Shown piece after piece: positions 40,195 through 43,362 of a DNA stretch of 64,000 nt. The DNA is taken from positions 1-64,000 of the forward strand of contig JAFZQJ010000026.1 of assembly GCA_017620395.1 (NCBI GenBank). The letters run 5' to 3'. Position 1 is the first letter of the stretch. Every line of letters starts with the position of its first letter. The position numbers were made by a program, and so were the translations under genes. Below the pieces are notes generated by a model. That model was given only the letters and a program-made list of their open reading frames with translations, did no database searches and was not told the DNA's origin. This DNA is from Clostridia bacterium. GTDB taxonomy: Bacteria > Bacillota > Clostridia > Oscillospirales > RGIG8002.

Positions 40195-41415
40195 ATGGAA
40201 GAAAAAGCGAAGACCGCTCTCGTCATGGAGGGCGGCGCGATGCGCGGGATGTTCACCTGCGGCGTCATCGACGTGATGATGGAAAACGGAATAGACTTCG
40301 AAGCCGCCGCGGGCATTTCCGCGGGTGCGGCGTTCGGCTGCAACTACAAGTCGCGCCAGATCGGCAGGGCGATAAGGTATAACAAAGCGTACTGCAAAGA
40401 TCCGCGCTACTGCAGTCTGCGTTCGCTGCGCAAAACGGGCGACCTTTACGGCGTGGACTTCTGCTACCGCGAGCTCCCGCTGGAGCTTGACGTTTTCGAC
40501 CGCGAGACCTTCGCCGCGGACCCGATGGACTTTTACGTCGGCGCGACGGATATAAACACCGGCGAAGCGGTATATCACAAGTGCTCGGACGGCGGCGAAG
40601 CCGATTTCGAGTGGATGCGCGCCTCCGCGTCGATGCCGCTCGTTTCACGCGTCGTGGAGATCGACGGCCGCGAGCTGCTCGACGGCGGTATCGTCGACGC
40701 CGTGCCGTATCGCTTCATGGAGTCGCTCGGCTATAACCGGAACGTCATAATTCTGACTCAGCCGAAGGGCTACCGCAAAAAGAAAAGCAGGGCGCTGCCG
40801 CTCGTCAGACGCAAGCTCCGCAAATACCCGAAGCTCGTCGAGGCGATGGCGGACCGCCACCTGATGTATAACGGACAGATGGACGAGATCGACGAACGCG
40901 AACGAGCCGGCGCCGCCCTCGTTATCCGCCCTCCCGAGCCGCTGAAGATAGGCCGCACGGAGAAGGACCCGGACGAGCTTGAGCGCGTTTATCAAATCGG
41001 CAGGGCGGAAGCGCTCCGCCGGCTTACGGAGCTGAAAGCGTTTCTGAACGATTTGAGGTTTTGCAGGGAAGGGGATATTCTTGAAATCAATATCAACGGC
41101 GATTATTTAACGGTTATGATAACCGGAGACGAATTTGAAGCTCCGTCTTCTCCGATCAAACGAGTGTGTCCGATCACTGATAAGTCACCTGTATCGGAGA
41201 ATATGAAGGTCGATATGGACGTTTACCCGTACAGAGTAGAGCTGAGCAATATAAAGACTTGGGGTTTCGTTATGTGCGACAATGAGTTTGAGATAGATCT
41301 GACGGAGGTCAACGCTTCGTATATAGAGAGCGCGCCGAGTAGGACAACATGGGAAGTCAGCCAATGCATAACCTCGTATAATTGGCCGAAAGACAGTGAA
41401 TACTTTATGGAATAA
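40195..41415 (+). CDS. Patatin-like phospholipase with unusual C-terminal extension
   Basis: A serine lipid hydrolase. The oxyanion GGAMRG (13-18), nucleophile Ser42 (GISAG) and Asp163 (DGG) form the patatin dyad. Bacterial single-domain relatives end near residue 285 with a helix like LTELKAFLND, which is present here at 278-286. An extra ~120 residues follow, rich in Asp, Glu, Val and Ser. They start where the base composition drops at about 41055, and I do not recognise them. The extension may be a fused unrelated domain or the relic of an insertion. A terminator follows. Confidence 0.88.
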   Translation: MEEKAKTALVMEGGAMRGMFTCGVIDVMMENGIDFEAAAGISAGAAFGCNYKSRQIGRAIRYNKAYCKDPRYCSLRSLRKTGDLYGVDFCYRELPLELDVFDRETFAADPMDFYVGATDINTGEAVYHKCSDGGEADFEWMRASASMPLVSRVVEIDGRELLDGGIVDAVPYRFMESLGYNRNVIILTQPKGYRKKKSRALPLVRRKLRKYPKLVEAMADRHLMYNGQMDEIDERERAGAALVIRPPEPLKIGRTEKDPDELERVYQIGRAEALRRLTELKAFLNDLRFCREGDILEININGDYLTVMITGDEFEAPSSPIKRVCPITDKSPVSENMKVDMDVYPYRVELSNIKTWGFVMCDNEFEIDLTEVNASYIESAPSRTTWEVSQCITSYNWPKDSEYFME

Positions 41416-41427
41416 TAACGTTTAACA

Positions 41428-41456
41428 TAAAACGCCCGCTTGTGCGGGCGTTTTGT
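41428..41456 (+). terminator. Terminator after the patatin gene
   Basis: AAAACGCCCGC / GCGGGCGTTTT with a four-base loop. Confidence 0.92.
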
Positions 41457-41535
41457 GCGTAAAAAAGAACCCTATCGGCTGTCCGTTAATAAGGTATAAT
41501 CCCCGTTAAGCAGTACCGATCAGGATTCTTGACAA

Positions 41536-41607
41536 TAGAGACACCTCTGAAACGGCGGGCTTGGTCCGAAATGACCTGGGCTTGTCGCCAACGGAGAATG
41601 CCTCTAC
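41536..41607 (-). ncRNA. Predicted small RNA, class A, copy 1
   Basis: Promoter TTGACT (41638-41643), 17 bp, TATAAT (41615-41620). The terminal stem pairs 41594-41606 with 41536-41547, with one bulge. Inside are GGC-GACAA-GCC and GGTC-ATTTCG-GACC hairpins. The 3' flank is not U-rich, so this outermost copy may end poorly. Confidence 0.55.
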
Positions 41608-41660
41608 GGGTATTATTATAACCGATACCGCAGGGAAAGTCAATACCAAAGAAACGCGGG

Positions 41661-41741
41661 TAAAAGTAAAAGAGACACCGCCCGGCCTTACGCCGGCGGG
41701 AGCGTCAACCCGACTTACTCCCTGAAGAACGGTATCTCTAC
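41661..41741 (-). ncRNA. Predicted small RNA, class B, copy 1
   Basis: Promoter TTGACT (41772-41777), 17 bp, TATACT (41749-41754). A 10-bp terminal stem pairs 41730-41739 with 41671-41680, followed by TTTTACTTTTA. Inside are a GGGAG/CTCCC hairpin with inner GTC/GAC, and CCGGC-GTAAG-GCCGG. Confidence 0.6.
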
Positions 41742-41793
41742 GGTTGATAGTATAACCGATAACGTCGGAAAAGTCAATACCGAAAAAACGCGG

Positions 41794-41875
41794 GTAAAAG
41801 TATAAGAGACACCGCGCGGCCTTACGCCGCAGACGGGGTCATTACGACTGGCCGCCTGAAGAACGGTATCTCTAC
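41794..41875 (-). ncRNA. Predicted small RNA, class B, copy 2
   Basis: Promoter TTGACT (41906-41911), 17 bp, TATACT (41883-41888). The terminal stem pairs 41864-41873 with 41805-41814, followed by TTATACTTTTA. Inside are CAGGCGG/CCGTCTG enclosing GTC-GTAAT-GAC, and GCGGC-GTAAG-GCCGC. Confidence 0.6.
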
Positions 41876-41933
41876 GGTTGATAGTATAACCGAAAAAGGC
41901 GGAAAAGTCAATACCGAAAGAAAAAAACGCGGG

Positions 41934-42013
41934 AAAAGTTATAGAGATACTCCTGAAAGGGCGGGCGTGGTTGAAAACAACTCACACTTGTCGCCAACAG
42001 TGAGTACCTCTAC
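41934..42013 (-). ncRNA. Predicted small RNA, class A, copy 2
   Basis: Promoter TTGACT (42045-42050), 18 bp, TATAAT (42021-42026). An 11-bp terminal stem pairs 42002-42012 with 41942-41952, followed by TAACTTTTCCC. The inner hairpin is GTTG-TTTT-CAAC. Confidence 0.6.
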
Positions 42014-42067
42014 GGGTATTATTATAACCGATACCAGCGGAAAAAGTCAATACCGAAAGAAAAAACG

Positions 42068-42151
42068 CGGAGAAAGTAATAGAGACATCTCTGAAAGGGC
42101 GGGCGGGGTTGCGAGCAACCCAGGCTTGTCGCCAACGGAGAATGCCTCTAC
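42068..42151 (-). ncRNA. Predicted small RNA, class A, copy 3
   Basis: Promoter TTGACT (42182-42187), 17 bp, TATAAT (42159-42164). A 12-bp terminal stem with one bulged base pairs 42138-42150 with 42080-42091. Inside are GGC-GACAA-GCC and GGGTTG-CTCG-CAACCC. The tail is TTACTTTC. Confidence 0.6.
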
Positions 42152-42205
42152 AGGTATTATTATAACCGACAGCGGCAGGAAAGTCAATACCGAAAGAAAC
42201 GCGGG

Positions 42206-42286
42206 CAAAAGTAAAAGAGACACTGCGCAGCATATAGCTGACGACGGGGTCGTTACGACTGACCGCCGGAGAAACAGTGCCTCTAC
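42206..42286 (-). ncRNA. Predicted small RNA, class B, copy 3
   Basis: Promoter TTGACT (42317-42322), 17 bp, TATACT (42294-42299). A 10-bp terminal stem pairs 42275-42284 with 42216-42225, followed by TTTTACTTTTG. Inside are GGCGG/CCGTC enclosing GTCG-TAA-CGAC, and CAGC-TATAT-GCTG. Confidence 0.6.
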
Positions 42287-42384
42287 GGTCGATAGTATAA
42301 CCGATAAAGGTAGAAAAGTCAATACCGAAAGCGAAAAAAGCTTGAAATCTTCGCGTGCGGCCGGCTTTCACTGCAAACAATGTA

Positions 42385-42491
42385 TATAAAAAGAAAGTCC
42401 GCTACAACCCCTGCTGTTGCGAATGCCACAGCCTCGAGCACTAATAATATAGCACCCTCTACGTCCAAGACGCAGGTAAGTCAGACTTTCT
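42385..42491 (-). ncRNA. Predicted small RNA, class C, copy 1
   Basis: Promoter TTGACT (42521-42526), 17 bp, TACGAT (42498-42503). An 8-bp terminal stem pairs 42484-42491 with 42392-42399, followed directly by TTTTTATA, a good terminator. The interior can form three hairpins: CTGCGTC-TTG-GACGTAG, GTGCTA/TAGTGC (with wobbles) and GCTGT/ACAGC. Confidence 0.62.
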
Positions 42492-42653
42492 ATGAGAATC
42501 GTACCACAAAAGGCACGAAAAGTCAAGGGCTTTCCAAAGTAAATACGGCGGATTTAGAAAAAGTGCGGAAATCTGCCGACAATACGCCGGAAAAAGCGCG
42601 GAATATACCCGAACGGGCGCAAAATGACGGTACCTACCATATTTACGACATAA

Positions 42654-42742
42654 CAAAAAGAATAAGAGCTACCGCACACCGATCTAACGGTGTTGGGAGC
42701 GTCACTCCGACTTACTCCCTAAATGGAAACGGTATCTCTTAT
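42654..42742 (-). ncRNA. Predicted small RNA, class B, copy 4
   Basis: Promoter TTGACT (42772-42777), 17 bp, TATACT (42749-42754). A 13-position terminal stem with one mismatch pairs 42730-42742 with 42662-42674, followed by TCTTTTTG. Inside are the same GGGAG/CTCCC hairpin as class B copy 1 and ACACCG-TTAGAT-CGGTGT. Confidence 0.62.
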
Positions 42743-42840
42743 GTAAAAAGTATAACCGATACCGACGGGAAAGTCAACACCGAAAACGAAAAAAACTTGA
42801 ACTCTTCGCGCGCGGCCGGCTTTCACTGCAAACAATGTAT

Positions 42841-42944
42841 ATAAAAAGAAAGTCTTCCGCCATTGCTGCTGCTTCCGCCGCAGCGACGACAGCTGAGAAC
42901 ACAGCCGTCACGACGCCCGAAGCGATGGTTGATCAGACTTTCTA
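42841..42944 (-). ncRNA. Predicted small RNA, class C, copy 2
   Basis: Promoter TTGACT (42973-42978), 17 bp, TATTGT (42950-42955). A 9-bp terminal stem pairs 42935-42943 with 42847-42855, followed by TTTTTATA. The interior forms GACGGCTG-TGTTCT-CAGCTGTC and GCTGC-GGCGGAA-GCAGC. Both flanks match class C copy 1, while the interior does not. Confidence 0.62.
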
Positions 42945-43057
42945 CGGAAACAATACCAGAAAAGGCGCGAAAAGTCAAGGGTTTTCTAAAGAAAATACGG
43001 CGGATTTAGAAAAAGTGCGGAAATCTGCCGAAGAAACGACGGAAAAAGTGCATGAAA

Positions 43058-43087
43058 AAAACAGAGCGTGGTATCACGCTCTGTTTT
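43058..43087 (-). terminator. Terminator after the two small genes
   Basis: A 13-bp stem, AAAACAGAGCGTG / CACGCTCTGTTTT, with a four-base loop and a T run on the minus strand. The stop codon of the 27-aa gene lies inside it. Confidence 0.9.
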
Positions 43088-43157
43088 GGTATTCCATCAG
43101 TTTTGCGACGGAAATGAATACCGGACACAAAACGATAGCCGCCAGCCAGACGCTCAT
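43074..43157 (-). CDS. Very small hydrophobic peptide, 27 aa
   Basis: The frame reads ATG to TGA for 27 residues: a hydrophobic stretch (SVWLAAIVLCPVFISVA) and a short polar tail (KLMEYQNRA), consistent with one membrane helix. Its ATG overlaps the stop of the 49-aa gene as ATGA, so translation could be coupled. It ends inside a strong terminator. I do not recognise it. Size and shape resemble small membrane peptides, including type I toxins, but nothing in the sequence proves that. Confidence 0.55.
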   Translation of the reverse strand: MSVWLAAIVLCPVFISVAKLMEYQNRA

Positions 43158-43303
43158 TCGTCTTCTCCTCCTTCGTAGTCGTAATCGGGCTCGGGATCGG
43201 TAAAATCCTGCTCTTCCGCGGCGAGCAGCGCGAGCAGCATTTCGCTGAAATCGACGTCGCCGAGGCCGCTGTCGTCAAACAGTTCGTCAATATCCTCCTC
43301 CAT
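43154..43303 (-). CDS. Small acidic protein, 49 aa
   Basis: ATG at 43303 follows GAGGTGG with a 7-base gap, a good ribosome binding site. The product is strongly acidic: an Asp/Glu-rich start (MEEDIDELFDD), a short hydrophobic helix (FSEMLLALLA) and an acidic tail. A TATAAT (43349-43354, minus strand) lies about 45 bp upstream; no clear -35 is present. It is unrecognised. With the 27-aa gene it forms a two-gene unit ending just upstream of the RNA array. Confidence 0.65.
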   Translation of the reverse strand: MEEDIDELFDDSGLGDVDFSEMLLALLAAEEQDFTDPEPDYDYEGGEDE

Positions 43304-43362
43304 TTTCACCACCTCTTTCCGCGGAGTTTTCTTCCGCTTTACGACCGTATTATAAAACGGCC

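Follow-up and report, generated by a model that had tools for sequence, protein, structure and literature searches.

A chromosomal island with nine structured small RNA units related to antisense RNA genes of phage polyvalent proteins in a Clostridia bacterium

The island and its neighborhood

The window, by which we mean the whole 64,000-nt stretch of contig JAFZQJ010000026.1 analyzed here, carries an array of nine promoter-bearing, structured units on a 2-kb island that was gained or lost recently (Table 1). In the same-genus sister genome G002, the flanking genes are 94–98.5% identical to those of the window and the segment 41046–43055 is missing. The GC content of the island is 0.44–0.48, compared with 0.61–0.63 in the flanks. 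Because of this low GC content and the absence from the sister genome, the island most likely arrived from outside. No direct repeats of 8 bp or longer were found at its ends.

Two side observations concern the borders of the island. On the plus strand, positions 40195–41415 encode a patatin-like phospholipase (with DUF6363) that is fused in frame to a MazF/PemK-like domain; the patatin of the sister genome is shorter. On the minus strand, positions 43056–43312 hold two tiny overlapping ORFs, which encode an acidic protein of 52 aa and a hydrophobic protein of 27 aa, followed by a strong terminator. The DNA sequence of the ORF pair and terminator is conserved in G002.

Table 1. Features of the island (−35, position of the 5′ base of TTGACT; R1, covariance model built from class A)
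Feature	Position	Strand	−10 hexamer	Remarks
Island holding the array	41046–43055			About 2.0 kb; missing at the matching site in same-genus G002
Divergent MazF/PemK-like domain	41047–41412	+		Joined in frame to the C-terminal end of the patatin by the island; a role in the array is doubtful
Class B unit 1	41525–41651	−	TATAAT	−35 at 41643; predicted RNA from ~41607; R1 match, 42.4 bits
Class A unit	41659–41785	−	TATACT	−35 at 41777; predicted RNA from ~41741; promoter, fold, R1
Class A unit	41793–41919	−	TATACT	−35 at 41911; predicted RNA from ~41875; promoter, fold, R1
Class B unit	41931–42058	−	TATAAT	−35 at 42050; 18-bp spacer; predicted RNA from ~42013; R1
Class B unit	42069–42195	−	TATAAT	−35 at 42187; predicted RNA from ~42151; promoter, fold, R1
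Class A unit	42204–42330	−	TATACT	−35 at 42322; predicted RNA from ~42286; promoter, fold, R1
Relic coding sequence: C-terminus and linker of a phage LPD3 polyvalent protein	42380–42844	+		...IYDITKRIRATAHR...SITDTDGKVNTE...; not an intact gene
Class C unit	42384–42526	−	TACGAT	−35 at 42526; predicted RNA from ~42491; hairpin CGU-CUUGG-ACG, then U-tract
Class A unit	42653–42785	−	TATACT	−35 at 42777; predicted RNA from ~42742; R1
Class C unit	42839–42978	−	TATTGT	−35 at 42978; predicted RNA from ~42944; hairpin CGC-UUCGG-GCG, then U-tract

Promoters and unit architecture

Nine TTGACT hexamers, all on the minus strand, lie within 1.45 kb. The first-pass annotation of this DNA had reported these elements with a spacer of 17 bp in eight promoters and of 18 bp in one, and all of them were found at the positions claimed. 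Promoters of the form TTGACT-17/18-TAnnnT occurred 0.03 times on average, and once at most, in dinucleotide shuffles of the region, compared with the nine observed. In a scan of the whole window, these nine were the only promoter-like sites with a downstream closed stem plus U-tract score of at least 23; all remaining promoter-like sites reached 21.5 or less.

The fold of each unit begins about 7 nt past the −10 hexamer and the RNA ends pair over 9–13 bp, and six units follow one another in tandem at a spacing of 134–139 bp. Both the end pairing and the regular repeat had been described before and were seen again. The U-rich sequence that had also been claimed to follow the units is clear in class C, and only moderate in classes A and B.

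RNA structure and family status

In the class A alignment, 98.5% of the pair cells are standard and four pairs have changed on both sides. The covariation score was 0.271, compared with 0.152 in shuffles, none of 500 of which reached the observed value, and it also exceeded every version of the alignment slid by 1–3 columns. The double, compensatory changes sit in the array members A41875 and A42286. Seven of the nine units have the more stable fold on the minus strand, with a difference of 2–15 kcal/mol from the plus strand; two class B units fold slightly better on the plus strand. Because of the promoters, the covariation, and this strand bias of the fold, the array is a structured RNA gene family, or recently was one. 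For an individual site, the score of the closed stem does not reach significance by itself, and synonymous-shuffle tests were therefore used.

A search of the window and the array against Rfam gave no match at the gathering threshold and nothing credible below it, in agreement with the earlier statement that the units belong to no recognized family. The skipping-rope RNA (RF02924), which is discussed below, was absent from the window even at E values up to 10 and was not found in G000.

Coding remains on the opposite strand

Read on the plus strand, units of classes A and B retain a piece of the linker of a polyvalent protein. The units run through all three frames with stops, so the array is no longer part of a protein; it lies outside any intact polyvalent ORF, with only coding relics on the plus strand. 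A tandem-repeat protein gene was considered as a candidate and rejected, since there is no continuous frame. The first-pass annotation had named a match to a known repeat protein as evidence against small RNA genes. Coding homology on the opposite strand does exist, but it is broken in the way described and no repeat-protein gene is present.

Relatives of the units in phages and in other genomes

Among 59 relatives searched, DNA matches to the array were restricted to the genus. In these same-genus relatives, the class A unit lies antisense within phage-type ORFs of at least 1099 aa, one of which has an LPD3 domain (Pfam PF18798). In same-genus prophages, class A units are placed directly after the LPD3 domain, antisense in giant ORFs for polyvalent proteins. 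The plus strand of class A encodes the end of LPD3 and a linker (...RDTARPYAGGSVNPTYSLKNGIST.DSITDN.GKVNTE...), and the reverse complement of the linker codons supplies the promoter, with K-V-N as the −35 and S-I-T/P as the −10 element. Separate class A units are nearest to separate phages: A41741 shares 93.5% identity with the antisense unit in a same-genus phage ORF (L045), and the RNA part of A42742 is nearest to the type found in another phage (L049, 88%). Named phages gave no DNA match to the array, and none of their proteins matched the LPD3 segment from the same-genus phage.

The covariance model R1 recovers all class A and B units as well as the phage units, with class B scoring 42–58 bits. 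A covariance-model search for further loci, as the first-pass annotation had proposed, was rewarded with two beyond the genus. In 295 genomes of the order, R1 found one locus outside the genus, in genome G206 (L089 1300–2400, G206:C28). This is a second chromosomal array of about six promoter and closed-stem units, which lies near an rRNA operon and adjoins a fragment of a phage polyvalent ORF beginning ...DSITEKGSNVNT...; its sequence is unrelated to the window array except for the first promoter. In 391 genomes of the class, one more locus was found, in G513 (L315 2693, minus strand), where an antisense unit with a strong stem lies in a polyvalent-like ORF of 756 aa from another lineage. As a separate observation, a short phage protein in the sister genome (L016 2657–3118, G002:C23) ends in the linker motif ...ADFEKMQKSAEKTSGNVQDIPDRGQN, and its linker is 79% identical at the DNA level to the linker beside the class C unit of the window.

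It is well supported that the units are copies of RNA genes that lie antisense in phage linkers after LPD3 or PBECR domains. The earlier description of independent small RNA genes, as opposed to spacer DNA, gains from promoter conservation, covariation, and homologues; it had missed the origin from phage linkers.

Linkage between nuclease-type domains and RNA units

PBECR domains are predicted to be injected RNases, and the mosaicism of the polyvalent proteins carrying them is strong (Iyer et al. 2017, PMC5512222). LPD3 domains and PBECR3 domains (PF18812) were gathered from 197 genomes of the order. Nearly every LPD3 or PBECR3 domain in a long ORF is accompanied by an antisense TTGACA-17-TATAMT-like promoter and a closed stem downstream. 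Phage-linked units were defined by TTGAC-17-TAnnnT, an RNA start within about 10 nt, a closing stem of at least 7 bp, and a U-rich end, and the units of the window array have all four features.

With one fixed criterion applied across the order, an antisense unit was detected 60–260 nt past the domain in 23 of 28 fused LPD3 or PBECR3 domains, a count for which the stem and promoter criterion was fixed after some of these loci had been viewed and whose shuffle control shares that criterion. Synonymous codon shuffling of the same proteins gave an expectation of 0.48, and the sense strand gave none. Windows elsewhere in these polyvalent ORFs had a unit in 11 of 186 cases, and three to five of the 28 domains have no detectable unit. 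Selected units had been tested against synonymous shuffles before, with a mean fold z of −2.46. In eleven contig stretches with polyvalent ORFs, a good stem followed 20 of 29 promoter-like sites in the antisense direction, compared with 1 of 14 in the sense direction.

Single loci follow the same arrangement. In the human-gut phage MT838554.1, three units accompany three LPD3 domains, and one IMG/VR contig has LPD3 and PBECR3 with a unit past each. A unit is also present after the MuF_C domain in G041; MuF_C has been described as a PBECR-type domain (PMC5512222). Pattern searches of IMG/VR were less specific: a promoter pattern returned ordinary promoters, and a second pattern returned mostly ordinary promoters, with 2 of 81 sites antisense in long ORFs and followed by a stem. 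Because no convincing unit was found at the PBECR3 proteins of a Helicobacter prophage and of Rhodobacter phage RC1, the rule seems limited to these Bacillota.

The RNAs also differ according to the domain. A hairpin of the form CGY-YUYGR-RCG is present in six of seven PBECR3-linked RNAs, in none of 18 LPD3-linked RNAs, and in both class C units of the window, whose homology to phage units is by hairpin type only. Since class A resembles the LPD3-linked RNAs and class C has the PBECR3-type hairpin, the array appears to cover two or more partner specificities, with class A as a putative LPD3 type and class C as a putative PBECR3 type. A profile comparison of LPD3 with the BECR fold was not significant, and no convincing relative of LPD3 was found in the PDB; AF2 models of LPD3 were of low confidence (pLDDT 39–45), and Foldseek returned no useful match. 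No LPD3 or PBECR3 domain was found in the host genome, which is 98.7% complete, and the array is an orphan version in which the RNAs stand without such a partner.

Stand-alone PBECR3 and the skipping-rope RNA

Short PBECR3 ORFs (118–167 aa) are without an antisense unit. Instead, the skipping-rope RNA follows in sense within about 30–60 nt of the stand-alone PBECR3 in all 11 sampled ORFs, in one of which (L105) the RNA was read off by near-identity to that of L103; the loci with this arrangement include L090, L091, L092, and L104. The promoter of the RNA overlaps or abuts the last PBECR3 codons. In most stand-alone loci, the −35 element falls within the conserved C-terminal ...ILYKxE* codons, where L-Y-K is written as TTTACA in most and as TTGACA in a few.

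Across 30 skipping-rope loci, an intact PBECR ORF lies directly upstream in about 13 and a degraded one in three, and the rest have none or the last codons only. The RNA occurs without a nuclease in about 14 of the 30 loci, and tandem orphan copies without an intact nuclease gene were found at two sites (L147/L166, G279:C25:5599–5795; G004:C7:27943–29644). No nuclease without the RNA was found among the 11 sampled stand-alone PBECR3 ORFs. An RNA that is often found without the nuclease, together with a nuclease never found without the RNA, is the pattern expected of a toxin and its antidote. Among the papers that could be searched, none was found to link the skipping-rope RNA to PBECR3 or to describe a function for RF02924.

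Proposed function and alternatives

Our main reading, to which we assign a probability of roughly 0.5, is that the RNAs are antidotes, similar to type III antitoxins, to phage-delivered nuclease domains, and that the host carries them as an orphan array. Each unit would be a small RNA gene of about 70–110 nt that is transcribed from a sigma-70-type promoter of its own and whose RNA is closed by base pairing between the two ends. In the phages, one related gene lies antisense directly past each BECR-type or LPD3 domain of the polyvalent proteins, and its RNA would be the specific partner of the adjoining nuclease-type domain, which it would bind and silence in the producing cell. The phage may use the RNA to protect the producing cell or to regulate the domain. 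The polyvalent protein presumably enters the cell along with the injected phage DNA, and a host that has the RNA only would be shielded from the incoming domain. The array would then correspond, at the RNA level, to arrays of orphan immunity genes and would cover several specificities. It is from the linkage of domain and RNA that we infer neutralization.

Antisense control of phage mRNA is the most serious alternative; here, the RNA would base-pair with the polyvalent mRNA to limit a late protein and the host array would provide RNA-based superinfection immunity in trans. Every polyvalent case has the RNA placed exactly antisense to the ORF, structured antisense RNAs such as P4 CI and c4 are known, and the 93.5% identity of A41741 to a phage unit, with further units matching further phages, fits such control. 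However, PBECR3 and skipping-rope RNA are paired in sense, which leaves no complementarity to the nuclease mRNA, and the array copies preserve pairing by compensatory change and not complementarity to a target. The type of RNA also tracks the type of domain, although linked inheritance of linker and domain could produce this as well. On balance, antisense control appears unlikely, though it deserves serious attention. A relic is improbable. Here, a tandem-amplified fragment of a polyvalent gene would be decaying, and its promoters and folds would be remains without present function, as the plus-strand remains of the LPD3 linker in class A and B units and the presence of the island in one genome and not in its sister might suggest. 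This is less likely because the frames are broken, whereas none of the nine promoters and closing stems is damaged; the compensatory pairs in A41875 and A42286 and the second array of unrelated sequence in another family (G206) also speak against it.

Two further explanations carry very little weight. A DNA-level element, whose hairpins would serve recombination or domain shuffling in phage genes and whose likeness to promoters would be incidental, agrees with the position of the units at domain borders of strongly mosaic proteins (PMC5512222). It is quite improbable, since promoter hexamers at the 17-bp spacing are more frequent than in synonymous shuffles, and the G-U pairs of the minus strand, its greater stability in most units, and the U-tracts after the stem are at odds with it. 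Slighter still is the chance that the array is a type III antitoxin of the adjoining MazF/PemK-like domain (41047–41412), comparable to ToxI for the MazF-fold ToxN. The domain shares the island with tandem RNA repeats, matches PF02452 with E=0.0054, below the curated cut-off, and has homologues with clear MazF motifs. But the phage relatives of the RNAs accompany LPD3 or PBECR and not MazF, no convincing RNA unit was found near five MazF relatives examined, and the array is convergent with the domain instead of upstream of it; the domain itself is divergent and fused to patatin.

An extension of the antidote reading is put forward tentatively, with odds somewhat against it as a whole. Phages of the Clostridia type may encode one antisense RNA antidote for each injected nuclease domain, with the antidote promoter written into a conserved linker peptide motif; hosts may bank these antidotes free of the toxin, and the skipping-rope RNA may be the antidote of the stand-alone nuclease. 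If so, the RNA array, an orphan Rfam family, and the BECR and LPD domains would be joined in one testable scheme of a nuclease domain with a dedicated RNA. The conserved phage peptide motif S-I-x...-V-N is suggested to be partly an antisense promoter. The scheme predicts RNA immunity islands borne by hosts and phage resistance from RNA genes alone, and the linkage of domain and unit offers a simple search rule for more such islands. No description of an RNA-only immunity island was found in the searchable literature.

Comparison with known systems

The skipping-rope RNA is similar in that a sigma-70-type promoter of its own overlaps or adjoins the 3′ end of a gene for a BECR-type nuclease, the RNA ends pair around inner hairpins, and both orphan and tandem copies occur. 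It differs in that there is no sequence match and in that it follows a stand-alone PBECR3 in sense, whereas the units described here lie antisense past a fused domain.

Type III toxin–antitoxin systems (ToxIN, CptIN, TenpIN; for a review, see PMC5086642) likewise combine a small structured RNA, possibly in tandem units, with a protein of the endoribonuclease type. In those systems, the RNA consists of repeats that lie upstream of the toxin gene and are transcribed together with it. In contrast, the array RNAs have their own promoters, the proposed partners have the BECR/LPD3 fold, and no such toxin is contained in the array. Tandem repeats upstream of and co-oriented with a ToxN, CptN, or TenpN gene were not found, nor was a ToxN-type Pfam match. 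The phage immunity RNAs P4 CI and P1 c4 are short and structured, can give superinfection immunity, and act on phage transcripts; they differ from the array RNAs in sequence and gene context.

The protein half of the linkage corresponds to the PBECR- and LPD-containing polyvalent proteins of phages (PMC5512222); neither antisense nor noncoding RNAs turned up in a term search of that paper. Orphan immunity-gene arrays of polymorphic and type VI secretion system toxins (PMC5361080, PMC10539506) resemble the array in that antidote genes are kept without the toxin. The antidotes there are proteins, whereas those proposed here are RNAs directed against phage-borne domains.
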